The notes below the pieces were generated by a model, which worked only from the letters and a program-made list of their open reading frames with translations, had not been told where the DNA came from and ran no database searches. From positions 499,114 through 563,113 of the forward strand of contig NZ_KQ033920.1 of assembly GCF_000969825.1 (NCBI RefSeq): 64,000 bases of DNA. The letters are read 5' to 3'. This DNA is from Parabacteroides gordonii MS-1 = DSM 23371 (GTDB lineage Bacteria > Bacteroidota > Bacteroidia > Bacteroidales > Tannerellaceae). The position numbers were made by a program, and so were the translations under genes. Numbering within the stretch: position 1 is the stretch's first letter; every line of letters begins with the position of its first letter. Shown here piece after piece: positions 8,107-25,356 of the stretch.

Positions 8107-9132
8107 TCATTTAGATAGATTCCTTAGCCATATCTTAAGTTCCTGGTCTTTTTCCCATGAACGTTCTGTTATATCGTTTGGTATCATATTAACATAAGCT
8201 GATTCCAAAGCCTCTCTTTTTTGTTTAGAATCAGCCCGAGCATATATTTCAGTAGTTTGTATAGATACATGTCCTAAAATATCACGAATATAGACCAAAT
8301 TTACACCAGCTTGTAACAAGTGCATAGCTTTACTGTGTCGTAAAGTATGCGGGCTTATTTTTTCCGGTATAAGTTCCGGATCTTGTATTCGGGCGTGATT
8401 AATATAATTATTCAAGATATAAGATATGCCAGAGTTTGTTAGCTTTCTGCCACAACTGTTAAAGAAAAGAGGTCTTTGATTAAAACCGGACAGGTCTAAA
8501 CGATTCTCTTCCATATAACTGCGTAATAAATTCACTTGTTCGTCTTGTAAAGGGACAATTCTTTTTTTGCGTCCTTTACCAAATAAGGTGACATGACAAG
8601 GCTTTTCCAATTTCAAAGATGCGGGTGTCAAGTCTATTAATTCTTGTACTCTGGCTCCACTATCATAGAGCAGGGATATCAAAGCTAAATCCCGTCGTCC
8701 TTTTTTCGTGTTGATTGGTATTTGTGCCAATAAAAGCTTAATGCCATCTATGCTGAGATAATTGACACTTCTTTTTTCATGTGTTTTTACCTTGATGGAT
8801 AATATCTCTTGCCATTGTTCCAGACGCTTTACATCCTCATATTGCATATATGTACAAAAAGAACGTAATGCCGCCAATCTTTGATTTCTAGTCGCGTTAC
8901 TCGATTTTTTCGTGTCTTGTAACCAATCAAGGAAGTTTAAAACCGTTTTTCTGGTAATATGTTCCAATCTAAGATTATCAGCCTTTATGTTTACCTGTTC
9001 GTCCAGAAAGTTTAACAGCAAGCTAAATGATTCGCTGTATGACCGTATGGTATTAGGGCTTACGCCTCTTTCTCCGATAAGGTACTCTGTGAAAAAAGCC
9101 GTTAAATGCTTCGCAAAGTCAGTCGTTTTCAT
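8107..9132 (-). CDS. RIT tyrosine recombinase, third gene (RitC-like)
   Basis: 341 residues. An N-terminal SAM-like core-binding domain (TEYLIGERGVSPNTIRSYSESF) is followed by the catalytic domain: Arg in LLYDSGARVQELIDL, Lys in the FGKGRKKR hairpin, HTLRHSKAMHLL (HxxR), LGHVSIQTTEIYARAD (second His and the nucleophilic Tyr). All catalytic residues are present. It is last of the trio and its ATG overlaps the stop of the previous gene by 14 bp. Its product likely works with the other two at the element ends; the division of labour is not known. Confidence 0.92.
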   Translation of the reverse strand: MKTTDFAKHLTAFFTEYLIGERGVSPNTIRSYSESFSLLLNFLDEQVNIKADNLRLEHITRKTVLNFLDWLQDTKKSSNATRNQRLAALRSFCTYMQYEDVKRLEQWQEILSIKVKTHEKRSVNYLSIDGIKLLLAQIPINTKKGRRDLALISLLYDSGARVQELIDLTPASLKLEKPCHVTLFGKGRKKRIVPLQDEQVNLLRSYMEENRLDLSGFNQRPLFFNSCGRKLTNSGISYILNNYINHARIQDPELIPEKISPHTLRHSKAMHLLQAGVNLVYIRDILGHVSIQTTEIYARADSKQKREALESAYVNMIPNDITERSWEKDQELKIWLRNLSK

Positions 9133-10144
9133 AAGTATCTACATTTAAATTAGTTATTATGTTTGTTTGAGGGTACACAAACCGTGTTATCGTATTTTGT
9201 TTCAATAGAATATCGGGAAACATATCTTGTGTCAGGCGCACGTAGGTTTCAGTCCCTTTCAACGTCTTATGCCCCAAGAAGACCGACAAAAGAGGAAGCG
9301 CACAATATATGTCCATTCCTTCTTGCACCATCTTTGCAAGGGAATGGACGGCAAAAGTATGTCTGAGACTATGTATGCAGGCTCCTCCGGAACGGTTGCT
9401 CGAACAAGGTATATTGCATTTTTCCAACACTTTCTTGAAACCGCCCAAAACAGTACAAGAAGATAACGGTCGTCCTGATGGGGATATTAACAAGAACTTG
9501 TCCGGGGCATCAACGTCTGGCAAGGGCATCTTGTTGCGATATTCCAAATACTGTTGTAGAACCTTGGACAGGGAGTCGCTTAAAGGAATAAGCCTTTCCA
9601 TCTTGTTCTTTGTCTTCCGAATAATGATGCAATTCCTTCTCAAATCAACATCCCGATTCCTAATGGATATGGCTTCCCCGATTCTAATCCCTGTAGCATA
9701 TAAGATTCTATATAAAGCAGGTAATGCAAAAAGATTACAATATATATTATGACTATGCATCCTTTGCTTGTCGCAAGCTTCAAAGATGTCCTGCATCTGT
9801 CCACGGGTAAACACATAAGGAGTAAAATCCGAATATTCCTTCTTTGGTAACTTGGGTATATAGCATTCTTTTCCTATGTGGCATAAGTATAGGCAAAACT
9901 GTCGGAACATGGACACCTTGTCATAGAGGGTTTTCTTTTTATCATGTATGCGGGTGCACTTCCATGTATCAATCATGCTTTTAGTTATGAACACATCCCT
10001 GATGTTGCTATTAACAAAGAACTTGTCAAACTCCAAGAGCATCCACTTTATCCGTCCAATGTCGGAAACCTGATTTTCTTTCATCGCAAGAAAATCCTTA
10101 AAATAAGGTGCGAACACGCTTTGATATATGAATTGTTCAGACAT
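9119..10144 (-). CDS. RIT tyrosine recombinase, second gene (RitB-like)
   Basis: 341 residues from ATG 10,144 (MSEQFIYQSVF). The frame is open further upstream, but this ATG overlaps the preceding stop as ATGTCTGA, a classic coupling signal. Catalytic-domain landmarks are ATGIRIGEAISI (Arg), RKTKNKMERLIPL (Lys region), IHSLRHTFAVHSL (HxxR) and FLGHKTLKGTETYVRLT (His, Tyr). It carries a longer loop between HxxR and the last helix (AKMVQEGMDIYCALPLLSV) than the other two. Confidence 0.92.
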   Translation of the reverse strand: MSEQFIYQSVFAPYFKDFLAMKENQVSDIGRIKWMLLEFDKFFVNSNIRDVFITKSMIDTWKCTRIHDKKKTLYDKVSMFRQFCLYLCHIGKECYIPKLPKKEYSDFTPYVFTRGQMQDIFEACDKQRMHSHNIYCNLFALPALYRILYATGIRIGEAISIRNRDVDLRRNCIIIRKTKNKMERLIPLSDSLSKVLQQYLEYRNKMPLPDVDAPDKFLLISPSGRPLSSCTVLGGFKKVLEKCNIPCSSNRSGGACIHSLRHTFAVHSLAKMVQEGMDIYCALPLLSVFLGHKTLKGTETYVRLTQDMFPDILLKQNTITRFVYPQTNIITNLNVDTYEND

Positions 10145-11414
10145 AGAACAAACCTCCTTTCTGTGTGTAGAAATCGGATGGGACATCCGGGACTTCAAGG
10201 ACACATTTCATCAAACCATCAATGTCTATCCGAAGATAGCCCATTGTCGTTTGTGTAGTTTTGTGTCCCAATGTCTCAGAAATGACGGGCAGTGATATGC
10301 CATTACGCAATAGCTGGCTGGCTAAAGTATGTCTCATAGCGTGAGGACCTTTTTTTCTATCCCTTGTATCTATTCTTGAATGGCAGATAATCTTTCTGAC
10401 CGACAAGGAAACCACCGCCCCATTCACAGGATTATATGGGGCTAAAGAGGATAGGAATATCTGTTTGGAAGAAGAACTCGGTCTGCCATATTTCACATAA
10501 TTGATGATAGCTTCTCCTACATCCTTTAAGAGTGGCAATTCTATTTCACGTTTAGTCTTGTACTGTATCAGGCGGATAATGTTTCTATCCCAGTCTAAAT
10601 TACTGAATTGTAATCCGGCAATATCGGAGGAACGTAGTCCTAACCGTGTTGCTAATAGGAGCATGGCGTAATCTCGTTTTCCTACAGGAGTGGATTGATT
10701 TACCGAAGATTCTATTTGCAAGACTTCTTCACAAGTGTATGTCGACGGTAGTTTTTCTTTTACAATATAACGGTTTCTTCCTATCACATAATCAATATTC
10801 TTATTGATAAGCTTTTGTTCGTACAGGTAACGACAAAATGCACGCATCGTTGCCAATACTCTTTGTTTACTGTTTTGGCTGGAAGATATAAAAGTTAGCA
10901 CATCATCCTCACCTATATCTGAGATGCGGGATACATTCCTCAAAGACAAATGCCTGAGAAAATAGCTGAACACATGTTCGTAGCCATCTATCGTTTTAGG
11001 AGATAGTCTTTGTTCTTCCAAGAGATGAAGGTATTTTGTCATAATGCCTCCTATTTCTCCTGAGAATTTGCGTATAACGTATCTTACAACTGGTTTTTGG
11101 ATAGTTCTATCCGTAAGATAATTAACGAATAGCAGTAATCGATAATTGGTTCCATGTATCAACCGCGTTTTTTCTTGTGGCATAGTCTTTAAAAACAAAT
11201 CGATGGATTCTACATTACAGTCTTGTATGTAGTTTATATCCATGTAAACGATAAAAAGACGACAGGTCTTTTTATACTGTCGGATAGTCGATTCTGAATA
11301 TCCGGCTTTACGCAACGCTTCTAAAAAATCCGAAACTTTGGATTCAAAATGATTTTTATTGTCCATAATACTATATTTGGAGGGAGCAACATTACTCTCT
11401 CCACAATATAGCAT
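10137..11414 (-). CDS. RIT tyrosine recombinase, first gene (RitA-like)
   Basis: 425 residues from ATG 11,414; ATG 11,366 (MDNKNHFESK) is an equally possible start. The N-terminal half holds two helical DNA-binding segments (ALRKAGYSESTIRQYKKTC and LHLLEEQRLSPKTIDGYEHV). The catalytic half has ATRLGLRSSDIAGL (Arg), YKTKREIELPL (Lys), GPHAMRHTLASQLL (HxxR) and LGHKTTQTTMGYLRID (His, Tyr). It lies next to the right terminal repeat and leads the three-gene operon. All catalytic residues are intact, so the element may still be mobile. Confidence 0.92.
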   Translation of the reverse strand: MLYCGESNVAPSKYSIMDNKNHFESKVSDFLEALRKAGYSESTIRQYKKTCRLFIVYMDINYIQDCNVESIDLFLKTMPQEKTRLIHGTNYRLLLFVNYLTDRTIQKPVVRYVIRKFSGEIGGIMTKYLHLLEEQRLSPKTIDGYEHVFSYFLRHLSLRNVSRISDIGEDDVLTFISSSQNSKQRVLATMRAFCRYLYEQKLINKNIDYVIGRNRYIVKEKLPSTYTCEEVLQIESSVNQSTPVGKRDYAMLLLATRLGLRSSDIAGLQFSNLDWDRNIIRLIQYKTKREIELPLLKDVGEAIINYVKYGRPSSSSKQIFLSSLAPYNPVNGAVVSLSVRKIICHSRIDTRDRKKGPHAMRHTLASQLLRNGISLPVISETLGHKTTQTTMGYLRIDIDGLMKCVLEVPDVPSDFYTQKGGLFYV

Positions 11415-14604: not shown

Positions 14605-16677
14605 CTACGGGCAGCTTGTGTTCCTTTGAAGATTATATGAACCGATGACAAAACAGCTTTGGTTCGCCGTGTCTTTGGTGATGATGTCCCTTTCCCGCAT
14701 GAAGCGGATATAGCTCTTTGCGGTGCGTTCCTTGATGTCCAAGACCTGCTGCAACTGCTCGCAAAGGTCTATGTAGGTGATGCGTGTCTGCCGCCCGAAG
14801 ATGTCACGTGCGACATTCACCAGTTCCCTTTCCTTGCGCTTCTCCTTTTCCTCACGGGGCTTCTCGCCCTTGTACACGTGCATCCCCGCTTCCTTGTCCC
14901 ATGCAAAGAGCATCAGCGGCACGTCCAGCGGGCTTCCGTCCCTTACTTTCAGGGCTTTTACCACCGACTGGGCGGGTTCATCGTCTTTCTCTATCGAAAG
15001 GATTGTAGCCGCCTTGCGCTGCAACTCGCTGCCCAAATGTCCCCGCAGTTTCAAACCGTTAGGGACGAAGTGCAGCACGCACAGAATACACGTGTTGTAG
15101 ATGCCCGCCAGCCGATAAAGTTCATCTATCACCGCCACGCTTTCCGCTTCATCGTTGGCACTTTTCACAAGGTCGGCGATGCCGTCAATGACGACCAACT
15201 GGATGCCGCCGTACTGGTAGTAGAACTTATCCATGCTCTGCACAATGGCGTTCAGGCGTTCCTTGCGTGACATACCAGTCAGGCAGAACGCTTTCAGCTC
15301 ATTGGGTTTGTCCTGCTGCCCCGCTCGTGCCAGCAGGTTGCTTACATTCTTGAACAGTTGCACTTCCGACTGTTCGGTGTCATAGAGCAAGACCGCCTTG
15401 TGCCTGCCGTTGGCGGTTATCTGTATGCCCAGCGTATCTATGTCCGCACCAGCGGGGCAGATGCAGCCCGCCACGATTGCGGCTACATAATTGCTCTTGC
15501 CCGTTCCCTCGCCCCCGGTGATGCCGAACAGGTTGCCTTGTGTTCCTAACGGAACGTCACCCGCCGAAATAATCTCTTGCGCTTTGGCGGGCGGGTTGTT
15601 GAAATCTATCTCGCACGATTTTAGCATAATTAGTGTGTCACTATACAGGTTGTCTAAAAATTCGATAAACAGTTTCAGGAAATCTTCACGGGTGTTCCCG
15701 GCTTTGAAGTAGTCGGAAATGTCCTTTTCCTCTTTCGTTCCCGGAAGCGGGAGCAGCAGGCGTTTCACGCCAAATTCTTCCAATAATTTTTCCTGCTTGC
15801 GTGAACTTTCCCTGCCCGTCTTGTCCATGTCAAAGAGCAGGACGATGTGCTTGAAGCGGAACGTCAGCCTATAAACCAGCGTGGGCGGTATCGTCACCGT
15901 TTCGCTGTTGAAGCAGATAGCGTGAAAACCATGCGCCGCCAGTGAAAGTACGTCTTTCTCGCCACCCGTGATAAAGAGCGTGTCACCTTTGGCGGGCAGT
16001 TGCTCCAGCCCGAAACAATAGTTCTCGCCGAAGCTGCCGCCGTAGAGGAAACGGGGTGTGGAGAACGGGCGGTACAGCTTGATGTGCTGTTTGCCCTTGT
16101 AGCCGTACATGGGTTCTGCCACCGATGAAATGTAGGTGTACGGCTTCCCCTCTGCCGTTTCACTGTTGTATTCCCGGAGCGAGCAGACCTTGTAATGTTC
16201 CAGCAGTTCGGGCGTGATGCCGTACTGTTGCCAGTACACTAATTCGGCAAGCGGGAACTTCTGTTCCCGGAACTGGTAGGGCTTGACTGGCTTTTCGGGT
16301 GTTTCTTCGGGTTTGTCCGGCTCTGCCCGGCGGACGGTTGCCGGGGGAATGGAAACCGGAGTGCCGGAAGCCAGCCCCAAGCCCAAATCCCGGTCGATGA
16401 TTTCCAGTATCTCCACGAAGTCAGCCGCCCTATTGCAGTCCAGCCCCTTTAACTGCCCCACGAAGAAGAAACAATCGCCGCTATAATTGTCGTTACCGAA
16501 GTCTTTCATCTTGTACATACCGCTATGGCGGTCGAAATAGATGTTGCAGGAAGCCTTGCTGTCCTCGTACAACGGGTTAAGGAAGTTGCGACCTATGCGC
16601 CAGTTACCGGGCAGGTAGTGTTTGAATACCGCCAGCCCGTTACTTGTTCTTTCTAAGATTTCCTCTTTCCTTAGCAT
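14605..16677 (-). CDS. Bifunctional primase-helicase (TOPRIM + RecA-like ATPase)
   Basis: 690 residues. The N-terminus is a DnaG-like region without a classical zinc finger (NIYFDRHSGMYKMKDFG). The TOPRIM core follows: DTLFITGGEKDVLSLAAHG with the catalytic Glu, and HIVLLFDMDKTGRESS with the acidic pair. The C-terminal third is a RecA/RepA-type ATPase with Walker A GITGGEGTGKSN and Walker B IQLVVIDGIADL. It would prime and unwind the element after transfer or during replication. Its start overlaps the upstream HTH gene by 38 bp, so the two form one leftward operon that ends at the terminator near 14,540. Confidence 0.88.
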   Translation of the reverse strand: MLRKEEILERTSNGLAVFKHYLPGNWRIGRNFLNPLYEDSKASCNIYFDRHSGMYKMKDFGNDNYSGDCFFFVGQLKGLDCNRAADFVEILEIIDRDLGLGLASGTPVSIPPATVRRAEPDKPEETPEKPVKPYQFREQKFPLAELVYWQQYGITPELLEHYKVCSLREYNSETAEGKPYTYISSVAEPMYGYKGKQHIKLYRPFSTPRFLYGGSFGENYCFGLEQLPAKGDTLFITGGEKDVLSLAAHGFHAICFNSETVTIPPTLVYRLTFRFKHIVLLFDMDKTGRESSRKQEKLLEEFGVKRLLLPLPGTKEEKDISDYFKAGNTREDFLKLFIEFLDNLYSDTLIMLKSCEIDFNNPPAKAQEIISAGDVPLGTQGNLFGITGGEGTGKSNYVAAIVAGCICPAGADIDTLGIQITANGRHKAVLLYDTEQSEVQLFKNVSNLLARAGQQDKPNELKAFCLTGMSRKERLNAIVQSMDKFYYQYGGIQLVVIDGIADLVKSANDEAESVAVIDELYRLAGIYNTCILCVLHFVPNGLKLRGHLGSELQRKAATILSIEKDDEPAQSVVKALKVRDGSPLDVPLMLFAWDKEAGMHVYKGEKPREEKEKRKERELVNVARDIFGRQTRITYIDLCEQLQQVLDIKERTAKSYIRFMRERDIITKDTANQSCFVIGSYNLQRNTSCP

Positions 16678-16999
16678 ACAGTTGGTGGTTGGTTATCAGG
16701 TTGTCGATGTTCTCCTTGTTGCTCCTTATCAGGCGTTCTTCCAGCATCCGGCGTATCTCGCTGACCTTGTAGAAATAACGTCCCCTGATGTTGGAATAGG
16801 CGATAGTCCCCGACACTCGCAGGCGTTGCAGGGTCTTTTCGCTTATTTTCAAGAACGTGCAGACCTCGTAGCTGTCCACCCACATATCTTCCTCGCTTTG
16901 TCTTGCCGTTTCCACGTGGTTGAAGATGTAGTCGGCAATGGCGGTAATCTTGTTGTCCAGTTCCTTGTAGGCTTTGGACTCGAATGTTATTATTTCCAT
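16640..16999 (-). CDS. Small helix-turn-helix protein (excisionase/MerR-like fold)
   Basis: 119 residues from ATG 16,999 (MEIITFESKAYKELDNK); an upstream in-frame start at 17,068 is less likely because a -7-like GAACTTTG box (17,023-17,030, minus strand) lies inside that extension. The core EDMWVDSYEVCTFLKISEKTLQRLRVSGTIAYSNIRGRYFY, read in pieces, is a winged HTH of the HTH_17/excisionase type. It may be an Xis-like factor or a regulator of the primase, which it overlaps by 38 bp. Function is inferred from fold and position only. Confidence 0.75.
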   Translation of the reverse strand: MEIITFESKAYKELDNKITAIADYIFNHVETARQSEEDMWVDSYEVCTFLKISEKTLQRLRVSGTIAYSNIRGRYFYKVSEIRRMLEERLIRSNKENIDNLITNHQLYAKERGNLRKNK

Positions 17000-17040
17000 A
17001 ATGGTAACTAATTGATTTGCCGCAAAGTTCGGGTGTCCTG

Positions 17041-17076
17041 AAAAATAAAACGCCACAGGCGAACCCACCTGTGGCG
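17041..17076 (-). terminator. Intrinsic terminator of rteC
   Basis: CGCCACAGG (17,051-17,059) pairs perfectly with CCTGTGGCG (17,068-17,076). On the minus strand the stem is followed by TTTTATTTTT. It ends the rteC transcript before the HTH gene. Confidence 0.85.
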
Positions 17077-17103
17077 AAATAAATTTTGTTAAAGCACGGT
17101 TGC

Positions 17104-17964
17104 CTAATCCTGCTCCCTCATGCGCAGCAGCAACCTGTCTTTCAGGGTGGAGAGGAAGCCCGTGCGGTCTTTGGTCTTGGCTTTTAGTTCCATGTAGGTG
17201 TGGTAGAAGTCGCCGAGGTCGATGTCGAACACATATTCAAAATAGGCTACAATCTCCTTTATATCAACCGTTCCCTTGTTCAGACAGCCGCAGGCGTCCA
17301 GTGCATAGACAAGCTCCACCAACGCCCTTTTCGTCCCCGTCCAGCGCAGCACCTTTCCCGTGAAGCCGTTCTTCACCCGCTTGCGCTGTTCCCGGCGTTC
17401 CAGCTCGTGCAGTCGGTTGGTGAGGTATATTTCCAGCAGTTCGTTGGCTAAAATCTTGGCTACCTTGAAGTCGTGACTGGTGCTGAACTGTGGGTCTGTT
17501 TCGTAATAGAAACTGTCCACAATGATTTGTATGTCAGGCTTCCCACGCATGAAATACTGCCTGTCCAAGTAGGTGGCTTTCGTGCGGTGGTACTGGTAGA
17601 ACGCCAAGTTCCGCTGGAACGACTTTGAAATCCGGTCGGTTTCCGACAGCAGGTAGTCCCGCTGCACGTCCTCGCTGCCGCTGGGGAAGCGCACCTCTAT
17701 CTTGTAAACGGTATTGTAATAGATGATTTTGCTTGCTAAAAGCGGTTTCAGTTCCTTGAAGAAGTGTATTTCTTCCTCCGTGCTGGCGAACGGGTAGGAG
17801 ATTATAAAGGTTTTGAGTTCGCCCAGTATCTCTTGCAGGTAGTCCACGCACAGGCGGCAAAGCGTCAGCGTGTCCGCTGCGGTGTCCTCGTATTCCTGTA
17901 TCTGCCATTCCACTTTTTGAAGCAGTCCGGCGAAGTATGTTTCCAACAGTATCTTATGTTCCAT
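17104..17964 (-). CDS. rteC: RteC-family regulator
   Basis: 286 residues from ATG 17,964 (MEHKILLETYFAG). The signature ELKTFIISYPFASTEEEIHFFK, here quoted in parts as FIISYPFASTEEE and HFFKELKPLL, is diagnostic of RteC. In CTnDOT RteC is the tetracycline-induced activator of excision genes. Here neither tetQ nor rteA/rteB is visible, so its inducer is open. A -7 box (17,992-17,999) lies 28 bp upstream and a strong terminator follows, so it is probably monocistronic. Confidence 0.9.
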   Translation of the reverse strand: MEHKILLETYFAGLLQKVEWQIQEYEDTAADTLTLCRLCVDYLQEILGELKTFIISYPFASTEEEIHFFKELKPLLASKIIYYNTVYKIEVRFPSGSEDVQRDYLLSETDRISKSFQRNLAFYQYHRTKATYLDRQYFMRGKPDIQIIVDSFYYETDPQFSTSHDFKVAKILANELLEIYLTNRLHELERREQRKRVKNGFTGKVLRWTGTKRALVELVYALDACGCLNKGTVDIKEIVAYFEYVFDIDLGDFYHTYMELKAKTKDRTGFLSTLKDRLLLRMREQD

Positions 17965-17991
17965 AACCTTGTGCTTATCTTTTATGAAGCA

Positions 17992-17999
17992 CAAAGTTA
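17992..17999 (-). promoter_or_regulatory. -7 box of rteC
   Basis: Minus strand TAACTTTG, exact TAnnTTTG match, 28 bp upstream of ATG 17,964. Confidence 0.6.
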
Positions 18000-18037
18000 C
18001 GGGCATAAAAAATCTGTTTTATTCTTGATTTTTCACA

Positions 18038-18880
18038 TTACGTTCTTGTAACTGTGCATTTTCTTGTTTCCTGCGCTTTTCTGCGTATTTCTCCGGGGGT
18101 ATCTAAAAGATACGCCTTGCAGAAGTCGTTCAGGTTCGATGTCGATGCGAACCCGGTGGTGAACGCCACTTCGGTAAGCGTGAGGTTTGTGTTCAACAGG
18201 TAGTGTTCCACGTCCTTTACCCGTTCCTTTATCACCCATTCCTTAGCCGTGTACCCGGTCATTTTCTTTACCTTTCGCCGGAACGAGCCGTATTCCATGC
18301 CGCATTTGTCCGCCAGTTGCTCGGCATCATAGACCATGTAGCCTTTCAGACGTACCATTTCGGTGAACGTCTGCCTGCCCAGTTCCGGCAGCATCCGTTC
18401 GGCGTGGCGCAGCTCCTTTTCCGTCACCAGCAGTCGGTTGTCCCTTACCGGGTTTCTCCGCAGCAGGTGGAAAGCGTGGCATACCGTGTTGTACACGTTG
18501 CATAGGTACTGCCGCCCCGGTCGCATCCAGTGGAGCGCATCGCAGTAGGCGGTCAGTTCGGGTATGTCGTCCCGCTTGCGGTGCTGTTCCGCCAGTTCGT
18601 CCAGTATGGCGTAACGGGTGGTGGACATACCCAGCAGGATGATGATTGCCTTGTAGTCCTTGTATGCCGCCAGTGTCGGCGTTTCCGGCAGGCTTTTGAG
18701 CGTGTCGCACACGTGGGCGCACAGCCGCCCGTCCTTGCTGAACGGTTTAAGTTCCAAGTAGTTGTCCATTTTCCGGCTGTTGTGCAGCAGCCATGTTACC
18801 TTTTCGTCCAGTTCCTTGCAGGACGCTTCCAGCTCCGCTTCGGGAGCGGGAAGCAATAGTGATGTAATACGTTGTTCCAT
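18038..18880 (-). CDS. AraC-family transcriptional regulator
   Basis: 280 residues. The C-terminal 100 residues carry both AraC helix-turn-helices: QLADKCGMEYGSFRRKVKK and LTEVAFTTGFASTSNLNDF, followed by DTPGEIRRKAQ. The N-terminal 170 residues are helical and do not resemble a sugar-binding cupin. Similar genes sit next to rteC in Bacteroides elements. It lies 30 bp downstream of the cassette array and may be read through from it. Confidence 0.85.
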   Translation of the reverse strand: MEQRITSLLLPAPEAELEASCKELDEKVTWLLHNSRKMDNYLELKPFSKDGRLCAHVCDTLKSLPETPTLAAYKDYKAIIILLGMSTTRYAILDELAEQHRKRDDIPELTAYCDALHWMRPGRQYLCNVYNTVCHAFHLLRRNPVRDNRLLVTEKELRHAERMLPELGRQTFTEMVRLKGYMVYDAEQLADKCGMEYGSFRRKVKKMTGYTAKEWVIKERVKDVEHYLLNTNLTLTEVAFTTGFASTSNLNDFCKAYLLDTPGEIRRKAQETRKCTVTRT

Positions 18881-18910
18881 ATCTGAATAAATTGATTTGT
18901 TTCCTGTACG

Positions 18911-19462
18911 TTACCCGGTAGCCCATAGCCAGACCTTTTGGATTAGCCGCCAAACCACGTGATAAAGGAACATGGCGGCAAGCATAAGAAAACCTGCCCG
19001 CAGGAAATATTCTTCAATGCGTTGCCAAACGCTCGTTTTTCGTTCGGGCATCAGTATGTCCGCCACTTCCTCAAAGCTCTTGCAGGCGAAAATCACTTGC
19101 CGGAACTCGTCTGCGCTGTTCCAGCATTCTTCCTTGAACCACCGTGTCTTGGGGTATCGTTCCGCTACCAGTTCTTGCAGTTTCCGTAACGGGAACGGTT
19201 CGGGGTCGTCCCCGTACTCGTATTCAATGGAAATCACTCGTCCCTGCATCCTGATGCAATATCCCAATATACCTTGCCACTTCACTTTGTGCGCCCTCTT
19301 TTCAACATATTTCGTCCCGGTTGCATCCACAACAATGTAGTTCTTCCGCTTCTTCAACAACTTGGTATTGGTCGTTGTGTACAGTTCTTCCTTGCGAAAC
19401 ACGTATATCATGTTGCCTTTGGGGGCAAAACTGAATATCGGGTATTTTAACTTCGTTTTCAT
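18911..19462 (-). CDS. Uncharacterised protein, paralogue of the next gene, C-terminal membrane helix
   Basis: 183 residues. It opens MKTKLKYPIFSFAPKGNMIYVF and shares with the adjacent 154-residue protein the same N-terminus, a NIVVD-type strand (here YIVVDATGTKY), KWQGI, a YPKT motif and CKSFEEVADIL. The last 35 residues add a hydrophobic helix (FLMLAAMFLYHVVW). I recognise no named family. Tandem diverged copies of small proteins in a cassette array are typical of immunity genes, so an immunity role is plausible (inference). Confidence 0.7.
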   Translation of the reverse strand: MKTKLKYPIFSFAPKGNMIYVFRKEELYTTTNTKLLKKRKNYIVVDATGTKYVEKRAHKVKWQGILGYCIRMQGRVISIEYEYGDDPEPFPLRKLQELVAERYPKTRWFKEECWNSADEFRQVIFACKSFEEVADILMPERKTSVWQRIEEYFLRAGFLMLAAMFLYHVVWRLIQKVWLWATG

Positions 19463-19465
19463 CTT

Positions 19466-19930
19466 TCAATACCCCCGCCAAATCTTCAATAAAATATTTT
19501 TAGAGGGGCAACATCTGAACAATTCTGCCAGTTCCTCAAAACTCTTGCATCTGAATACGGTCTGTGTGAATTCATCTGCGTTTTCCCAAAGCCCGGAACG
19601 ATATTCTTGTGTTTTTGGGTATCGCTTAACGACAATCTCCTGTAATGTCCGTAAAGTAATGCGGACGGGATTTTCCTCGTATTCATTCTCTATTTCAATA
19701 ATGCCGCACTGCATACCTATAAATCCACGTATGCCTTTCCAGCGGATGAAATGGGCTGATTTTATTGTGTACATCATACCTGAAGCATCTACTACAATGT
19801 TCTTTTCACGTTTGTTCCGCTTGAACCATGTTATACTTGTGGTATTATATGTATTCTCTTCCCAACAAACATATACCACGTTGTTTCGGGGAGAGAATGA
19901 AAATATCGGGTATTTTAGTCGAGCTTTCAT
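19466..19930 (-). CDS. Uncharacterised protein, paralogue of the previous gene
   Basis: 154 residues starting MKARLKYPIFSFSPRNNVVYV, clearly homologous to the 183-residue protein 3 bp downstream (NIVVDASGMMY, RWKGIRGF, RYPKTQEY, CKSFEELAELF) but without the C-terminal membrane helix. The two were probably made by tandem duplication. No catalytic motif is visible. It sits in the last cassette with the 65-residue gene 10 bp upstream. Confidence 0.7.
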   Translation of the reverse strand: MKARLKYPIFSFSPRNNVVYVCWEENTYNTTSITWFKRNKREKNIVVDASGMMYTIKSAHFIRWKGIRGFIGMQCGIIEIENEYEENPVRITLRTLQEIVVKRYPKTQEYRSGLWENADEFTQTVFRCKSFEELAELFRCCPSKNILLKIWRGY

Positions 19931-19940
19931 TGGGAATAGT

Positions 19941-20138
19941 TTACTGTTTTATAAAAGCAAAATAAAGCAGGGTAACACCTACCACAACCCCGAAAAAGAT
20001 ACAACCTGTAATATTGAAAGCCCAATCGGGGTAATGGAAATCAAGTTCTTCATAAGGAATGGCGGCTTTCTTTATACATCTGTTCCATACCCATATCAGA
20101 ACTTTTCCAAATCTCTTTACTGTGATAAGGCTACTCAT
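19941..20138 (-). CDS. Small single-span membrane protein
   Basis: 65 residues with one strong hydrophobic segment near the C-terminus (ITGCIFFGVVVGVTLLYFAF) and a basic N-terminal half. No family is recognised. Its ATG lies 3 bp past the first attC-like hairpin, and it is followed without a hairpin by the two paralogues, so these three genes appear to share a cassette. Confidence 0.6.
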   Translation of the reverse strand: MSSLITVKRFGKVLIWVWNRCIKKAAIPYEELDFHYPDWAFNITGCIFFGVVVGVTLLYFAFIKQ

Positions 20139-20141
20139 ATT

Positions 20142-20193
20142 GTTAATGGTTTGGTGAGGAACAACGTTTAGCTGTTATCTCGACCTTGTTAGC
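20142..20193 (-). other. attC-like cassette boundary hairpin 1
   Basis: Minus-strand ends are GCTAACAAGG and CCATTAAC. The arms fold as GGT-C-GAG-AT-AACA / TGTT-C-CTC-A-CC, with a two-base AT bulge opposite a single C, as in the other two sites. It lies between the stop of the 264-residue gene and the start of the 65-residue gene. Confidence 0.6.
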
Positions 20194-20199
20194 AAAATA

Positions 20200-20994
20200 T
20201 TATACCCATTCTAATATTGGGTTAGGTCTATGAACAAAATACTGTCTATTACCCGGAATTGAAAATGTTATTCCTGTAATGCGATTTCGTTCAAGTTCCT
20301 CTTTTAGTTTGTCAGATATATAAATCATCCATGAAAAGTAGGGTATTTGAAACAAATCCATTGAAAAATCAAAAGAACGATTAAAATATATCCTATCAAC
20401 TTGTTCAAAATTCCAATACTCCTCAGATAAAGTAGATATTTGTTTCTGATTTTTTTCTCTTAGCTTTGCCGTTTCAGACAACTTACTTATCATTTCCGAT
20501 ATAGTTTTGTTATGTATAGGCAAGTTCTCTACATCTTTTCTATCTCTTACTAAGTGATATTCTCCTGCTTTTGTTTTTATCCGAATATTAGATTTTTCAT
20601 AATCAATCATTCCTAATATATCATTTTGAATATAGGTAAAGTCATAATGTAGAGCATAATAGTTGGCATCTACTTTATTCCTTTTTTTAGGCATATAAAC
20701 ATCTACATTAAAAAAACGATGTTCGGGTAAAGAACAAAGTTCTATGATGTTTTTGACCTTTTCGGATATACACAAATGCTCTATCGGGCTGAAAATAAAA
20801 TCATTCAGCCTATTAAATTCCACATCATCATAAATCCTAATTTCAAGATTTAAATCGGGAATTTGTTCAGGATACGCACCGTTTTCTTTGATATATTCTC
20901 TCAAAGAGAATTTCGGCTGCTTTTTCCAATAGTTCTTTGTAAACTCCGCAGAACTTGTGTCCTCTACTTCTAATACATGGTATTCTTTGTTCAT
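20200..20994 (-). CDS. Imm11/DUF1629-like immunity protein
   Basis: 264 residues, AT-rich. The layout matches DUF1629/Imm11 proteins: a SPIEHLCISEKVKNIIEL segment mid-protein, then FFNVDVY, and the characteristic close ISDKLKEELERNRITGITF. Such proteins neutralise polymorphic toxins delivered by neighbouring bacteria. No toxin gene is next to it, which is the pattern of orphan immunity genes in acquired defence clusters. It is bounded by attC-like hairpins on both sides, a complete single-gene cassette. Confidence 0.65.
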   Translation of the reverse strand: MNKEYHVLEVEDTSSAEFTKNYWKKQPKFSLREYIKENGAYPEQIPDLNLEIRIYDDVEFNRLNDFIFSPIEHLCISEKVKNIIELCSLPEHRFFNVDVYMPKKRNKVDANYYALHYDFTYIQNDILGMIDYEKSNIRIKTKAGEYHLVRDRKDVENLPIHNKTISEMISKLSETAKLREKNQKQISTLSEEYWNFEQVDRIYFNRSFDFSMDLFQIPYFSWMIYISDKLKEELERNRITGITFSIPGNRQYFVHRPNPILEWV

Positions 20995-21009
20995 AGACTT
21001 TCTGTTTTT

Positions 21010-21057
21010 GCTAATGGTTAGCAGGGAACGGCTCGTCCGTTATCCTGCGTTGTTAGC
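21010..21057 (-). other. attC-like cassette boundary hairpin 2
   Basis: Minus-strand ends are GCTAACAACG and CCATTAGC. The stem is GCAGG-AT-AACGG / CCGTT-C-CCTGC around ACGAG, again with the AT bulge opposite C. It lies between the 241- and 264-residue genes. Confidence 0.65.
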
Positions 21058-21067
21058 TGTATTTTAG

Positions 21068-21793
21068 TCAAAAGTCATGTAGCACAAACAGACTTTTAAC
21101 AAGATAATTTTCTACTGTCCATACGGCATAATATCCGCCTGCACCGTCACTGTTCTGCGTGCTGATGAACAGTGAGTTTCCTTTACCCAATGCCACGACA
21201 ACATTGTTTCGGCTCGGTTCGTATAGATGTGTTATGTATGCTGTTGGAAATTCCAATATTCCGGCAGGGTGCTTGACGGTGACAGATGCGTATTCTTCAT
21301 GCGGAATATTATCATCTATGCCTGTCAAGTCAGAACAACCGTCAATACTCCGAACAAAACCTGCTTCCAAATCATAAACAATGGCATGTTTTTGTGGATT
21401 AAAATTTTGGAAGTCTATCTTTACAGTTAATGTGTCGTTGGCATATACAAGGCATTTATCTGTGCTTTGCGGCTGTTTCTTCAACTGTGGCAAATCTGCC
21501 AAATAACGGATGCGGCTTTTATGGATTTCTCCTATATGGGTATTTCCATTCGGGCAAGTCTTGGTTATGCCCGTTTCTGCTCCATACTCTACGCTATGCC
21601 ATTCTTTATGGCTCTTTTGTGCATCCCAATCGACAAACACATGATTATCCAATAATTTGCCTATTACTGTTCCACTTGTATCACGTACATTTACATATCC
21701 GTCCGCATCCTGAATGACACCGAAGAAACGCTGTTGTGCTTGTATAGGCAAGCAAAACAGAAGTGCCGATATGTAGAAAATAATCTTTTTCAT
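21068..21793 (-). CDS. Exported protein with SH3-like domain, possible periplasmic immunity protein
   Basis: 241 residues. A clear signal peptide (MKKIIFYISALLFCLPIQAQ) is followed by DADGYVNVRDTSGTVIGKLLDNHVF, a bacterial SH3-type segment, then about 150 residues without a recognised domain. As a secreted single-gene cassette between attC-like hairpins, it could bind a cell-wall-directed toxin in the periplasm (inference). Confidence 0.6.
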   Translation of the reverse strand: MKKIIFYISALLFCLPIQAQQRFFGVIQDADGYVNVRDTSGTVIGKLLDNHVFVDWDAQKSHKEWHSVEYGAETGITKTCPNGNTHIGEIHKSRIRYLADLPQLKKQPQSTDKCLVYANDTLTVKIDFQNFNPQKHAIVYDLEAGFVRSIDGCSDLTGIDDNIPHEEYASVTVKHPAGILEFPTAYITHLYEPSRNNVVVALGKGNSLFISTQNSDGAGGYYAVWTVENYLVKSLFVLHDF

Positions 21794-21805
21794 GCTTCTA
21801 TTACA

Positions 21806-21856
21806 GCTAATGGCTTGACAAGGAGCTGCGTTCAGCAGCTATCTTGGCTTGTTATC
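21806..21856 (-). other. attC-like cassette boundary hairpin 3
   Basis: Minus-strand ends are GATAACAAGC and CCATTAGC. The stem is CAAG-AT-AGCTGC / GCAGCT-C-CTTG around TGAAC. Same bulge rule as sites 1 and 2 but different stem sequence, so structure is conserved rather than sequence. Confidence 0.65.
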
Positions 21857-21871
21857 AACATTTATAATTAC

Positions 21872-22885
21872 TTACTCCCATATTATTTCACAAAGAGCCA
21901 GCTTGTTATCTTCATTACAGATAAATGCCCGGTTATTCCAAACATCTAACACTCGGAAAGCACTATATCCACGAGGCATAACGAGGTCAACTAAAGTACA
22001 ATCAGAAAGGCGTAATAGTTTTTGCTTGCCTTTCCATTCATCTGTTTTGAAAATGGAAGATAAAATTAGCCAAGTTCTATCCCCTGAGAATTTACCTCGC
22101 ATCCCATGTTTTCCGGGCAAACGGCTTAAATTGTCTTTACCCCACAATTTATTTTTAAACAAGCCGTTAAACTCCAACTCTATATACCAATAATATCCCA
22201 TTCCAACCAAACCTGCCGGATTAATTGTGCTGCTTTCCAAAAAAGCATATAAATGTCCAGCCTGTTCTTGCATAGAACCTATCAGAGGATAGTTATAATT
22301 GAAAACTGCTTTGGAGAAATCTCCATTCGCTTTTGTCACCGAATCAAGATGCGCCTGCCGAGTTCCAGCTTTGTTATATACACAAGAACCAATGTCAGAC
22401 CAACGGGCAGTCATTGTTGCAAAATTGACAGTCAAAGTTGTGAAACTATTTGTTGCTTCCAAAACCCTATCCACTCTACATACAATAGGAAATACATCAT
22501 GTTCTCCAGTAACAGCTATTGGCATAGGTATGCCTCCGGCACACCAGTTATCCATAGAAATAGAAGTCCAATCACCATTTATTTCAGATAACCACCAAAG
22601 AGTTTTGCTGGCTCCACAAAGAAATAATATTCCGTTATTACAAGATAAAAGTACGGGGTCTTGCACTTCTTGGGGTTTTGGAGTGGGGATAAATTGGGAA
22701 ATATCTCCTTTTATCCATAGCACTCCTTTCGACTTTTGCTGTGAATGATAAACAGAGAATACAATTTCATCTTCGCTACGAACTATCATCCCTTTGCCGC
22801 CAAGTGGACTATATTTGAAAGAAGTGCCAGACAATTCAATTCCGCCAAACTCCCAATCTTTTATTATTTTCAGTTTCGCTTTCAT
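21872..22885 (-). CDS. Uncharacterised cytoplasmic protein, first cassette of the array
   Basis: 337 residues, no signal peptide or membrane span. The sequence is rich in short strands (GILFLCGASKTLWWLSEING, YYWYIELEFNGLF) and could be a beta-propeller-like or repeat fold, but I recognise no family. It starts 80 bp downstream of the recombinase stop and ends 16 bp before attC-like hairpin 3, so it would be the most recently added cassette if the array works like an integron. An immunity role is a guess from context. Confidence 0.6.
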   Translation of the reverse strand: MKAKLKIIKDWEFGGIELSGTSFKYSPLGGKGMIVRSEDEIVFSVYHSQQKSKGVLWIKGDISQFIPTPKPQEVQDPVLLSCNNGILFLCGASKTLWWLSEINGDWTSISMDNWCAGGIPMPIAVTGEHDVFPIVCRVDRVLEATNSFTTLTVNFATMTARWSDIGSCVYNKAGTRQAHLDSVTKANGDFSKAVFNYNYPLIGSMQEQAGHLYAFLESSTINPAGLVGMGYYWYIELEFNGLFKNKLWGKDNLSRLPGKHGMRGKFSGDRTWLILSSIFKTDEWKGKQKLLRLSDCTLVDLVMPRGYSAFRVLDVWNNRAFICNEDNKLALCEIIWE

Positions 22886-22917
22886 GATTAAAATTCCGTT
22901 TTTGTTGATAATTTATT

Positions 22918-22964
22918 TATAACCGCACCTTATGGTGTCGTTCCTACATTCCTATAACTGCACC
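22918..22964 (-). other. Candidate attI-like site next to the array recombinase
   Basis: TATAACCGCACC (22,918-22,929) and TATAACTGCACC (22,953-22,964) are direct repeats with one mismatch, 35 bp apart, between the recombinase stop and the first cassette. This is where an integron would have its primary insertion site. Confidence 0.4.
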
Positions 22965-24071
22965 TCACGAATTATCCAGTGTATCAAGAGGATTAGGGAT
23001 TTTTGCTTTATGGGCACTTGACACATGAAGATAAATGGTTGTGGTCTTGATGTCGTTGTGTCCCAGCAATTCCTGTATCGTGTGCAGGTCTGTTCCCTGT
23101 TCCAGCAAGTGTGTGGCAAAGGAGTGGCGCAGCATATGTACGTGTACACGGTGTTTGATGCCAGCACGATGTGCGGCTTCTTTCAGCACTTTCACCAATG
23201 CACTTGCCGAATATTGCTCTCCGGGTGTTTCGCCCTCAAACAGCCATTTTTGTGGACGATATTCCCGAAAGTAGTGCCGTAGTTCTTCCAGCAATTTGGG
23301 TGAAAGGAGCGAATAACGGCATTTCTTCCCCTTGCCCATAATGCGAACCGACATTGTTTCACTGTTGATGTCCTGCGGGGTCAGGTTAAGCAATTCGCTT
23401 CTTCTAAGTCCGGCAGAGTAAACCAACGAAATCATGCAGTGATGCTTGATGTTGGAAATTTGTGCAAGGATGCGCTTAATTTCATTCTTGCTCAACACTT
23501 CGGGCAGGCTCTTGTACTCTTTGGCACGGGTGATACCGCCGTAGTATTGCCGTTTGCCGCCTTTCACCTGCTCGTAATAGAACTTGATAGCATTGATGCG
23601 CATATTCTGTTGCGACACCGAGATTTTCTTCTCGTTCACAAGATAGAGTATGTACTTGTTGATGTCCGGCACTTTCAGGCGGTCGATGTTCCGTCCCTTG
23701 TGATATTCCATGAAATCGCTGAAATAGGCACGGTATGTTTTGACTGTCGAGGGGCTGTAACGCTTCTGTTCCAGCAGTTCGAGATAGCCTTTCGGCAGTG
23801 TGTATTCCCTTTTAGGTTTGGGATGCCGCACGTAAATCCGGCTGTAATCAATATAGGCGTGGGGTGAATAGCGGTCGTAGAAATCCGGCAGGCTGAAAGC
23901 GGCTGACGCTATGTATGCAGAACCGTTGCCAGCCATTTCCATGCCCGTGTCTTGGGCGAGCAGTTGGGTTACAGCCTGACTGTTCGCATATTCTATTCGT
24001 ATGTAGTCTGCACCGTCCCTTGTTTCTTTGTGTAGCACGATGCTTCCTCTTTGTTTCTGAACCTTATCCAT
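22965..24071 (-). CDS. IntI/Xer-like tyrosine recombinase of the cassette array
   Basis: 368 residues from ATG 24,071 (MDKVQKQRG); the frame opens at 24,137, but a TATCTTTG -7 box at 24,096-24,103 favours the later start. After a 100-residue N-terminal extension come the core-binding domain (KRYSPSTVKTYRAYFSDF) and catalytic residues: YSAGLRRSELLNL, MGKGKKCR, HVHMLRHSFATHLLEQG, ELLGHNDIKTTTIYLHV. The ending KIPNPLDTL resembles the SPLD tail of integron integrases. It reads in the same direction as the cassettes, as in rAID clusters. It might instead be the integrase of the whole element, since att is 1 kb away. Confidence 0.8.
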   Translation of the reverse strand: MDKVQKQRGSIVLHKETRDGADYIRIEYANSQAVTQLLAQDTGMEMAGNGSAYIASAAFSLPDFYDRYSPHAYIDYSRIYVRHPKPKREYTLPKGYLELLEQKRYSPSTVKTYRAYFSDFMEYHKGRNIDRLKVPDINKYILYLVNEKKISVSQQNMRINAIKFYYEQVKGGKRQYYGGITRAKEYKSLPEVLSKNEIKRILAQISNIKHHCMISLVYSAGLRRSELLNLTPQDINSETMSVRIMGKGKKCRYSLLSPKLLEELRHYFREYRPQKWLFEGETPGEQYSASALVKVLKEAAHRAGIKHRVHVHMLRHSFATHLLEQGTDLHTIQELLGHNDIKTTTIYLHVSSAHKAKIPNPLDTLDNS

Positions 24072-24168: not shown

Positions 24169-24783
24169 TCAGGCTTTAAGCAGCGAATAGATATAGCGAA
24201 AGTTTTCTGCCAGTTCGTCCACGTTCAAACCGTTCAGAAATGCTTGTTCGTATGACAGTCCTAAAAACATTTGCCGGAACATGGTAGCCGTTTTCCTCAC
24301 GTCCGTGTCACTTCTGATTTCCCCGCTTTCTTTTGCTTTCTGCACGACTTTCGCCCACAGGTCATGGTCATGGCTGAATACTCTTTCGATTTTCTGCCTG
24401 ATGCCCGGATAGTACGTACGCACTTGTGACAGGAAATGAAAGTAGTAGAAGCTGGGGCTACAATCATGTGGGCTGTTATTATCGTCAATCAGTTCAACAA
24501 TCCTTTTCATGGAAGCGGCTACCCCCGCCACGTATTGCCCGATGAACTTCTCCAACGTATCGGCAGGAGTTTCAAACTTGTTTTCCGGTTCGTGCATTTT
24601 TAACACGTATTTGTCTGCCACAGCCATGAATAAATCCAGCTTGTGCGGAAAATAATAAACGATACCCGTTTTTGTCACTCCGCAGGCTTTGGCAAGCGTG
24701 ATGATGCTTGCTTTCTCGTAGTTCATCCTGACAAATACCCCAAATGCTTTATCTATTACTTCTTCACGGTTAGTTATTATCAT
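24169..24783 (-). CDS. TetR/AcrR-family regulator
   Basis: 204 residues. The N-terminal HTH is ITLAKACGVTKTGIVYYFPHK with the usual YYFPHK close; the rest is the helical ligand-binding domain, with YFHFLSQVRTYYP and FRQMFLGLSYEQAFL. No efflux or enzyme gene is adjacent, so its target may be itself, the recombinase, or the large palindrome at 24,854-24,906, 70 bp upstream. Confidence 0.85.
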   Translation of the reverse strand: MIITNREEVIDKAFGVFVRMNYEKASIITLAKACGVTKTGIVYYFPHKLDLFMAVADKYVLKMHEPENKFETPADTLEKFIGQYVAGVAASMKRIVELIDDNNSPHDCSPSFYYFHFLSQVRTYYPGIRQKIERVFSHDHDLWAKVVQKAKESGEIRSDTDVRKTATMFRQMFLGLSYEQAFLNGLNVDELAENFRYIYSLLKA

Positions 24784-24853: not shown

Positions 24854-24906
24854 TTAGTGCAAGGTGCAAGTATATATTTATATATATAGCTTGCACCTTG
24901 CACTAA
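24854..24906. promoter_or_regulatory. 17-bp perfect palindrome made of tandem heptamers
   Basis: TTAGTGCAAGGTGCAAG (24,854-24,870) is repeated inverted at 24,890-24,906 around a 19-bp AT-rich centre. Each arm holds GTGCAAG twice in tandem. No T-run follows on either strand, so it is not an ordinary terminator. It could be a TetR operator or a recombination accessory site near the element end. Confidence 0.55.
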
Positions 24907-25005: not shown

Positions 25006-25102
25006 GCTTAACGGTTGAAAATCGTTACTGTTTCGTTACCTATTTGAAATTTTGAAAGCAAAGTAGCTGAAATATAAGCGGTTAGAGTTGTAGGTTCAAA
25101 AC

Positions 25103-25115
25103 CCTGTCTCTCCGC
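25103..25115. other. Right attachment-site core of the element (tRNA-Leu 3'-end type)
   Basis: CCTGTCTCTCCGC is the 3' end of a tRNA gene without the rest of the tRNA. From memory it equals the common core at which NBU1 inserts into a tRNA-Leu gene. A tRNA-style terminator and an intact tRNA-Ser follow. The complete tRNA should lie at the far end of the element, outside the window. Confidence 0.7.
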
Positions 25116-25116
25116 G

Positions 25117-25145
25117 AAGCAGCATAAAAAGCTGCTTTTTTTATT
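25117..25145 (+). terminator. Intrinsic terminator downstream of the former tRNA 3' end
   Basis: AAGCAGC (25,117-25,123) pairs with GCTGCTT (25,131-25,137) around ATAAAAA, followed by a T-rich tract. Confidence 0.8.
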
Positions 25146-25182: not shown

Positions 25183-25270
25183 GGAGAGATGCTCGAGTGG
25201 TTGAAGAGGCACGCCTGGAAAGCGTGTAAACCCCTAAAGGGTTTCGCGGGTTCGAATCCCGCTCTCTCCG
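25183..25270 (+). tRNA. tRNA-Ser(GGA)
   Basis: 88 nt. Acceptor GGAGAGA (25,183-25,189) pairs with TCTCTCC (25,263-25,269), discriminator G, CA encoded after it. The anticodon stem CACGC/GCGTG frames loop CTGGAAA with anticodon GGA at 25,217-25,219. A long variable arm (CCCCTAAAGGG) and the T-arm GCGGG-TTCGAAT-CCCGC confirm a class II serine tRNA. Confidence 0.97.
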
Positions 25271-25356
25271 CAAAAAATCTTTTTACATAATAATTGTGTA
25301 GACGCGATGAAAATGCTATCTTCGCACCACTGTTAACAAATGACTGGTGTGAAGAA

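Follow-up and report, generated by a model that had tools for sequence, protein, structure and literature searches.

The stretch of 64,000 nucleotides analyzed here (the window) belongs to Parabacteroides gordonii MS-1 = DSM 23371 (contig NZ_KQ033920.1, positions 499,114 to 563,113) and carries on its minus strand a tyrosine recombinase gene followed by an array of three genes, each closed by a hairpin site. Comparison with related loci makes it very probable that recombinase and array form an integron-type gene-cassette system, seated in a platform that bears RteC, and this system is likely the acquisition machinery of the recombinase-associated acquired interbacterial defense (rAID) immunity clusters. 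The units of the array have exact boundaries, begin at an attI-like site, and lie in a single orientation; their end sites keep their pairing through compensatory changes, whole units have been exchanged between arrays, and the recombinase lacks the I2 insertion. A preliminary description of the window had proposed a true integron-type cassette system in Bacteroidales, and this proposal is supported, with the recombination itself read from comparative genomics.

Hairpin Sites and the Pairing of Cassette Ends

On the gene-sense (minus) strand, the hairpins read xxxxxTAACAA...CCATTAxxxxx and separate open reading frames (ORFs) of 337, 241, and 264 aa downstream of the recombinase. They lie where the preliminary description had placed them (Table 1), and the shared ends that it had noticed (xyTAACAA and CCATTAxy on the minus strand) are present in all three. 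A structure-annotated alignment of 70 such sites (A2), of which three are the hairpins of the window, is the source of the covariance model R1. Because these seed sites were chosen by their end motifs and a weak minimum fold, the percentage of paired cells is partly selected (91.9%, versus 71.1% in shuffled and 28.5-54.1% in slid controls), and the stem is shifted in some families. Changes on both sides of a pair affect 204 cells as compared to 56.5 after shuffling, which bears out the earlier remark that the stems diverge and yet stay paired; a double change occurs in each of the 11 variable pairs, as it also does in 38 of 500 shuffles. The AT bulge opposite a lone C, which had been taken for a fixed feature, is found in all three window hairpins (C on the minus strand, G on the plus), but it is common rather than fixed in the seed set, where a lone G with AT opposite occurs in 40 of 70 sites. 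The spacer of the site measures 6-7 nt on one arm versus 4-5 nt on the other, and on the R''-L'' arm two bases face a single one.

A covariance scan for more hairpins beside related recombinases, which had been suggested as a check, was productive. R1 finds 203 sites in 28 of the 34 sources searched (training sites included). Their orientation with respect to the recombinase is uniform, and 200 lie downstream of it. Ten of the 203 matches deviate from the TAA/TTA ends.

Neighboring sites are linked by a rule, referred to here as the chain rule: the five bases that follow TTA in one site form the reverse complement of the five that precede TAA in the next. The R1 model, by which the sites were detected, excludes these bases; the detection of links depends on all sites being detected. 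Agreement at 2 nt is observed in 155 of 175 adjacent site pairs, where 10,000 shuffles gave 17.7 on average (s.d. 3.9) and at most 34. At positions 1-5, the counts are 161, 162, 164, 166, and 159 of 175, where 46, 58, 72, 87, and 78 are expected, and at position 6 agreement is near background (93 of 175 versus 78.5). With the first links from attI-like sites included, the links number 199; agreement over all 5 nt is seen in 170 (5.4 on average in 5,000 shuffles, 16 at most) and agreement at 4/5 or better in 181 (19.3 on average, 34 at most). The three links of the window, given as cassette start / 5' arm of its own end site, are all exact: TTATCAAC/GTTGATAA, TTAGCTGT/ACAGCTAA, and TTAGCAAA/TTTGCTAA. 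Inside an array, a site's own two ends match at 2 nt in just 15 of 203 cases.

The rule extends to sites that did not shape the model. A held-out set consists of nine stretches, seven of them from genomes that apparently also supplied the model with other stretches. Of its 63 pairs, 42 are exact and 48 agree at 4/5 or better, for which the null is 5.6 with a maximum of 15; none of its 72 sites closes on itself at 5 nt. In the four loci of an earlier set, which includes a near relative of training loci, 21 of 30 links agree at 4/5 (null 2.7, maximum 9). The only site pair observed beside a canonical IntI obeys the rule over 10 nt. A separate observation concerns locus L126, where 19 mostly compliant sites are present on a 17-kb contig and the recombinase search of that genome reported none on the contig.

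From these links, the cassette would be the unit TTAxxxxx - gene - xxxxxTAACAA...CCA, whose ends are complementary, so that full pairing through an 8-bp outer stem is available only to a circle. The integrated site keeps only TAA/TTA of the outer stem because its last bases are now part of the next cassette. In the proposed reaction, the recombinase would join the attI-like site to the attC-like sites at the 3' ends of cassettes, and in the excised circle the two cassette ends would pair over the 8 bp of the outer stem and complete the hairpin. The adjacent recombinase would be the acting enzyme.

The Recombinase and the Predicted Folding of the Sites

The window recombinase matches Phage_integrase (2.5e-39) and Phage_int_SAM_4 (2.1e-16), its R-H-R-H-Y residues align, and its nearest solved structures are IntI4 (2a3v), archaeal Xer, and XerA. 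The label of IntI/Xer-like recombinase given to it earlier holds for the SAM_4 and catalytic domains; it is not an IntI by sequence (TIGR02249 at 191.9 bits, below the cut-off of 265) or by tree, and it has no IntI-type I2 insertion. Of 36 rAID-type rows, 34 have an aligned spacing of 91 aa from GLR to HxxR (the rest being a fragment and a misread ORF), versus 133 in 18 of 20 canonical IntI of the same phylum (two fragments). Among remote Bacteroidales relatives, this spacing is 91 in 21 of 27, with one at 92, one at 111, and four fragments. Direct motif search gives 85 in 36 of 36 rAID-type proteins, 85-86 in 25 of 25 remote ones, and 127 in the 4 IntI that match the pattern. As read from the alignment, the I2 insertion of about 42 residues is absent from the recombinase clade. 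Phylogenetically, 32 rAID recombinases form one clade (100/99), with a second type of 48% identity as sister (97/98), and 17 IntI form one clade (100/100) on a long branch, separate from the rAID recombinases. Three proteins of 546 aa (P0025, P0029, and P0047) combine the recombinase with an extra Pfam domain, PF15571.

Predicted energies favor one strand. The bottom strand of the site core is predicted to be the more stable one in 104 and the top strand in 22 of 135 sites, and for the circular forms the figures are 168 and 22 of 195. The circular form is predicted to be more stable than the integrated one in 181 of 195 cases, with the reverse in 4. In the preferred reading, the system uses an I2-less integrase that would act on folded single-stranded sites, probably of the bottom strand.

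The alternative that survives best is that the cassettes move as units through double-stranded site-specific recombination by a Xer-type enzyme, the hairpin being two inverted binding sites and no folded single strand being involved. The enzyme itself speaks for this: it lacks I2, its spacing is Xer-like, archaeal Xer and XerA are among its nearest structures, and the tree separates it from IntI. The sites speak otherwise, since a protein that reads double-stranded sequence does not need the five variable bases at the cassette ends to be complementary, the stems change in sequence while their pairing is kept, and the circle is nearly always the form predicted to be stabler. On balance, double-stranded exchange is considered rather unlikely.

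Distribution of Recombinase and Sites

Relatives of the recombinase were found at 33 loci, 31 at 77-99% identity and two at 48-49%. Those at 77-99% belong to Bacteroides, Phocaeicola, Parabacteroides, Mediterranea, Coprobacter, Xylanibacter, and other genera. In the genome of the window itself (6.79 Mb), R1 has 24 matches at E<=1, and 23 of these lie no farther than 10 kb from a recombinase copy; the genome has four such copies, three of them 79-100% identical and the fourth 48%. By this clustering and by their R1 scores (Table 1), the window hairpins are not chance matches. Two places on different contigs of this genome (C2:1768410-1775136 and C4:619-7345) have equal-scoring recombinases together with a site series, which represents either a duplicated region or a mobile element present twice.

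Sites and recombinase also co-occur among genomes. In a family sample of 123 genomes, the recombinase is found in 5, sites in 5, and both in 4, of which two have just the 48% type (Fisher p 2.7e-6). In a second family (191 genomes), sites are present in 11, and all 8 genomes with the recombinase have them (Fisher p 4.4e-12). In an order sample of 344 genomes, sites occur in 4, of which 3 have a close recombinase. A canonical IntI scoring above the curated cut-off was found in 1 of the 73 genomes sampled from the window's class; for a whole-phylum sample, the figure is 84 of 296.

The second recombinase type (48%), represented by L117 (C3:88000-104500 of the same genome as the window) and L118, accompanies arrays of 16-17 pattern matches with other hairpin families. 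These arrays follow the chain rule too, with agreement at 4/5 or better in 12 of 15 links and in 13 of 16. Among the loci with remote recombinases (L099-L116), L114 has repeated GTTA-type hairpins and a complementary link from GTTATAACC to GGTTATAAC beside an I2-less remote relative, and in L101, L103, L105, and L109 the contig ends 259-433 bp past the recombinase match.

The attI-like Site, Breakpoints, and Exchange of Cassettes

Past the stop codon of the recombinase, the sequence conserved among related loci ends in ...ATAAACAAATTA, ...AAATAACATTA, or ...GAATACATTA and is followed by abrupt divergence. The attI-like site is located 53-92 bp downstream of the recombinase gene, and in the window its TTA plus 5 bases pairs with the first attC-like site. 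First links from attI are exact in 21 of 24 loci and agree at 4/5 or better in 23. In L015, L018, L020, and L023, TTCAAGGC takes the place of TTAxxxxx just past the attI-like site, and it is found also within the array of L038. Given that one cassette representative has IS91-type transposase domains, an IS91-like element may use TTCAAGGC junctions.

The ends of homologous cassettes were compared at places where the neighbors differ. At left ends (119 comparisons with different defined left neighbors), identity is 0.76-0.93 at +3 to +29 and 0.23-0.66 at -6 to -30; between -5 and -1, the bases are shared in part, as CCA ends most sites. When a cassette at attI is compared with one behind an attC (24 comparisons), identity is 1.00 at -1, 0.25 at -2, 0.04 at -3, and 0.83 at -5. 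At right ends (92 comparisons), it is 0.98-1.00 through TTA and 0.26 one base further on. These steps place the exchange point within ATTA, and cleavage may occur between A and TTA, by analogy with the integron, where it falls between G and TT. Chain rule and breakpoint profile together define the cassette boundaries in the window, and they agree with the earlier expectation that boundaries would coincide with hairpins.

Cassettes shorter than 3 kb number 198, with length quartiles of 485, 591, and 770 bp and a mean GC of 33.8%. One ORF of at least 50 aa is present in 190 of them, and the longest ORF is in the sense direction in 195. They fall into 119 clusters, 44 of which are multi-member. 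Left neighbors differ in 42 of 43 testable clusters and right neighbors in 37 of 38, and 12 clusters occur both at attI and behind an attC. Cassette 3 of the window has homologues at attI in L027 and behind an attC in L029, and copies of the 241-aa ORF of cassette 2 (88-96% identity) occur in L127 and L128. Four loci, L009, L010, L011, and L012, whose hosts are Parabacteroides, Xylanibacter, and two Bacteroides, share the platform with the window: the part from TetR through the recombinase to attI is 94.8-97.5% identical, and the right flank from AraC to the 142-aa ORF, including RteC, is 96.5-97.3% identical. Among these near-identical platforms, array overlap is limited to cluster 6 in L009 and L010 and cluster 8 in L009 and L012, and the window shares none.

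Gene shuffling by homologous recombination between near-identical intergenic repeats, with the recombinase as a bystander, could draw on the several site cores that are identical between cassettes and would serve as homology. It is nevertheless very improbable: attI and attC have little in common at the junction besides ATTA and position -5, and yet the same cassettes are found behind both; moreover, the breakpoints are sharp, and sites and recombinase co-occur. Least probable of all is a role of the hairpins as RNA elements, such as terminators or processing sites, between the immunity genes. They are conserved stem-loops past stop codons and all oriented with the genes, but their complementarity joins the end of one site to the start of the next across a gene, with no self-closure in the held-out set. 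Better folding is predicted for the strand opposite to mRNA sense, and Rfam gives no match at the sites (none up to E 5 at the window hairpins; in nine further loci, at gathering score, a DUF805b match in L114 only). The chain rule and the breakpoints likewise weigh against this reading.

Evidence Weighing Against an Integron-Type System

Several observations weigh against the integron-type interpretation. The first group concerns the reaction. The recombinase has no I2 helix, on which integron integrases have been reported to depend for capturing cassettes. The strand bias consists of predicted energies on sites that were found with a bottom-strand model. Wobble counts show it less strongly: wobble pairs are 29 of bottom type versus 10 of top type, or 16 versus 9 without two family-specific pairs, and arm mismatches favor the bottom strand by 6 versus 2 of 11. 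Excision, circles, and the choice of strand are deduced from comparative genomics only.

The second group concerns the arrays and their distribution. Of the 199 links, 29 are inexact, and agreement at 2 nt is missing from 20 of 175, some of them over gaps able to hide an undetected site. Three sites in L020 are upstream of the recombinase, and 4 of the 28 loci with downstream sites (L015, L020, L023, and L024) have no clean first link and were excluded from the attI set. Sites occur without a recombinase match in G041, G398, G761, G810, and G821, and G067 has the recombinase and no sites. In the order sample, 105 of 344 genomes have a recombinase relative at 1e-50 (3 of them close), and R1 sites are present in just 4 of the 344; a strict link search of 14 remote loci retrieved an array in 1.

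Cassette Contents and Relation to Known Systems

The genes of the window array had been described as low in GC, with an Imm11-like protein among them. The three cassette ORFs have a GC of 38.8, 40.9, and 30.6% versus 46.1% for the whole window, and the 264-aa ORF of cassette 3 contains Imm11 (PF07791, E 5.8e-9); the 241-aa ORF of cassette 2 has a weak lipoprotein-signal match. A Pfam search of the 119 cluster representatives gave, among 25 of the 44 families matched, PoNi 5, Tdi1_C 5, Imm-NTF2 5, Imm5 3, SMI1_KNR4 (SUKH) 3, Imm43 2, Imm11 2, and others; Imm22 and Imm68 are further immunity families present. The earlier suggestion to check that hairpins flank single immunity-like genes is borne out as to single genes; a good part of the cassette genes has no immunity domain recognized by Pfam among the 119 representatives.

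The rAID clusters of Bacteroidales are described, in the part of the source consulted, as having a tyrosine recombinase, an array of co-oriented, short, low-GC orphan-immunity genes, and conserved intergenic motifs (PMC12247911). The window cassette ORFs correspond to the published requirement of at least two co-directional downstream genes with GC < 41%, and Pfam families of the cassettes correspond to those of immunity proteins, here putatively orphans with respect to the type VI secretion system (T6SS), although not every cassette gene has such a family. A further published requirement is a recombinase homologous to BF9343_RS08045 of B. fragilis NCTC 9343. By those published criteria that could be tested, the arrays are rAID clusters, in agreement with the context proposed in the preliminary description, and the window array is probably the same system. 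The gain for the host would be resistance to the T6SS toxins of its neighbors.

According to the portions consulted, rAID clusters show "features consistent with active acquisition" (PMC12694586), and the mechanism of their biogenesis was an area of active research in 2025 (PMC12247911). The words integron, attC, and hairpin are absent from the main text of the latter paper. What is new over the rAID descriptions is that the intergenic motif is resolved as an attC-like site and that an attI, an exact cassette unit, and a recombinase without I2 are defined; the original 2019 rAID paper (Ross et al.) may already draw the integron parallel. Among the open-licence papers listed in literature searches, no title or opening of an abstract mentions integrons or attC sites for rAID clusters or for Bacteroidales, which does not prove absence.

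Integrons, known for spreading antibiotic resistance and represented also by the chromosomal integron of Vibrio cholerae, resemble the present system in several respects: an attI beside the integrase gene, one-gene cassettes in a single orientation, and sites that are imperfect inverted repeats, with outer arms pairing within one circular cassette and a bottom strand predicted to fold better. In an integron attC, R' and R'' are complementary within one cassette. The differences reside in the core, which here is ATTA plus five free bases versus GTTRRRY (in place of RYYYAAC / GTTRRRY, the sites read TAAC...CATTA and then the free bases), and in the enzyme, which is outside the IntI clade and has no I2. 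Of the features by which integrons are recognized, the attI beside the integrase, the complementary outer arms of attC, and the discrete, exchangeable, mostly single-gene cassettes are all found here, and an IntI-clade integrase with I2 is not. For attC, the consulted part of one source describes recombination of the bottom strand, arm pairing extending to 9-11 nt, an unpaired G in the inner box, and two or three extrahelical bases (PMC2727003).

With XerCD-type recombination, the system shares the enzyme fold and spacing of a Xer-like recombinase. Xer has been reported to integrate the CTX phage in the form of a single-stranded hairpin (PMC7790495, consulted in part). Elements that exploit Xer differ from the present one, in which multi-cassette arrays, a dedicated attI, and a recombinase encoded alongside are found and there is no dif site. 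According to the same source (PMC7790495), cassettes cannot be captured without I2, and no other protein contains it. The present results question this rule: either cassettes are captured through single-stranded sites without I2, or the hairpins of these arrays work differently. The IntegronFinder 2.0 survey, in the part consulted, lists complete integrons in Chlorobi, Ignavibacteriae, and Salinibacter ruber, with only In0 previously in Bacteroidetes, and does not name Bacteroidales (PMC9024848). The present results would put integron-type cassette arrays in this order. They would also offer a nucleotide-level mechanism for how gut Bacteroidales may gather immunity genes against T6SS toxins, a question that, as far as the consulted part of the source goes, was open in 2025 (PMC12247911).

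Layout of the Locus and Neighboring Features

The features of the locus are collected in Table 1.

Table 1. Features of the cassette locus and its platform in the window
Feature	Position	Strand	Remarks
TetR-family regulator, platform left flank, upstream of recombinase	24169..24783	-	TetR_N 6.1e-7
Tyrosine recombinase, putative I2-less integron-type integrase	22965..24071	-	368 aa from ATG 24071; frame open from TTG 24137
attI-like site	22909..22971	-	conserved ...GGTTATAAATAAA right ahead of TTATCAAC
Cassette 1	21811..22911	-	TTATCAAC - 337-aa ORF (21872-22885) - attC-like site 1 up to CCA
attC-like site 1, with 5-nt arms	21803..21859, core 21808-21854	-	R1 match 63.3 bits
Cassette 2	21015..21810	-	TTAGCTGT - 241-aa ORF (21068-21793) - attC-like site 2
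attC-like site 2, with 5-nt arms	21007..21060, core 21012-21055	-	R1 match 48.3 bits
Cassette 3	20147..21014	-	TTAGCAAA - 264-aa Imm11-domain ORF (20200-20994) - attC-like site 3
attC-like site 3, with 5-nt arms, last detected site of the array	20139..20196, core 20144-20191	-	R1 match 60.4 bits
Platform right flank	16640..20138	-	65-aa, 154-aa, and 183-aa ORFs; AraC-type regulator 18038-18880; RteC 17104-18006; 142-aa ORF

RteC is recognized in the right flank by PF09357 (3.4e-78), and by the role of this protein, the platform is probably an integrative conjugative element. The TetR regulator of the left flank has a tblastn match in 49 collected loci, some of which overlap. The ORFs at 19941-20138, 19466-19930, and 18911-19462 sit past the last site and relate to the conserved right flank, and their status as cassettes is not supported. 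Those at 19466-19930 (154 aa) and 18911-19462 (183 aa) are paralogous. In L009, L011, L012, and L025, the 183-aa version directly follows the 65-aa ORF, so that the copy of 154 aa would seem to have arisen by insertion or duplication locally within the right flank.

Just upstream of the TetR gene there is a perfect 17-bp inverted repeat with 19 nt between its arms (24854-24906), a possible operator through which TetR might control the integrase. A 26-nt direct repeat (81%) occurs at 25093-25118 and 25249-25274. A tRNA gene (Rfam tRNA, 25183-25270) is overlapped at its 3' end by the second copy, and it is possible that this repeat is an attachment-site remnant near the platform edge. At 8107-11414 on the minus strand, three tyrosine recombinase ORFs of 341, 361, and 425 aa are adjacent to each other. 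Copies with identical scores occur four times in the same genome (C1, C2 twice, and C3), and the set resembles "recombinase in trio" elements.

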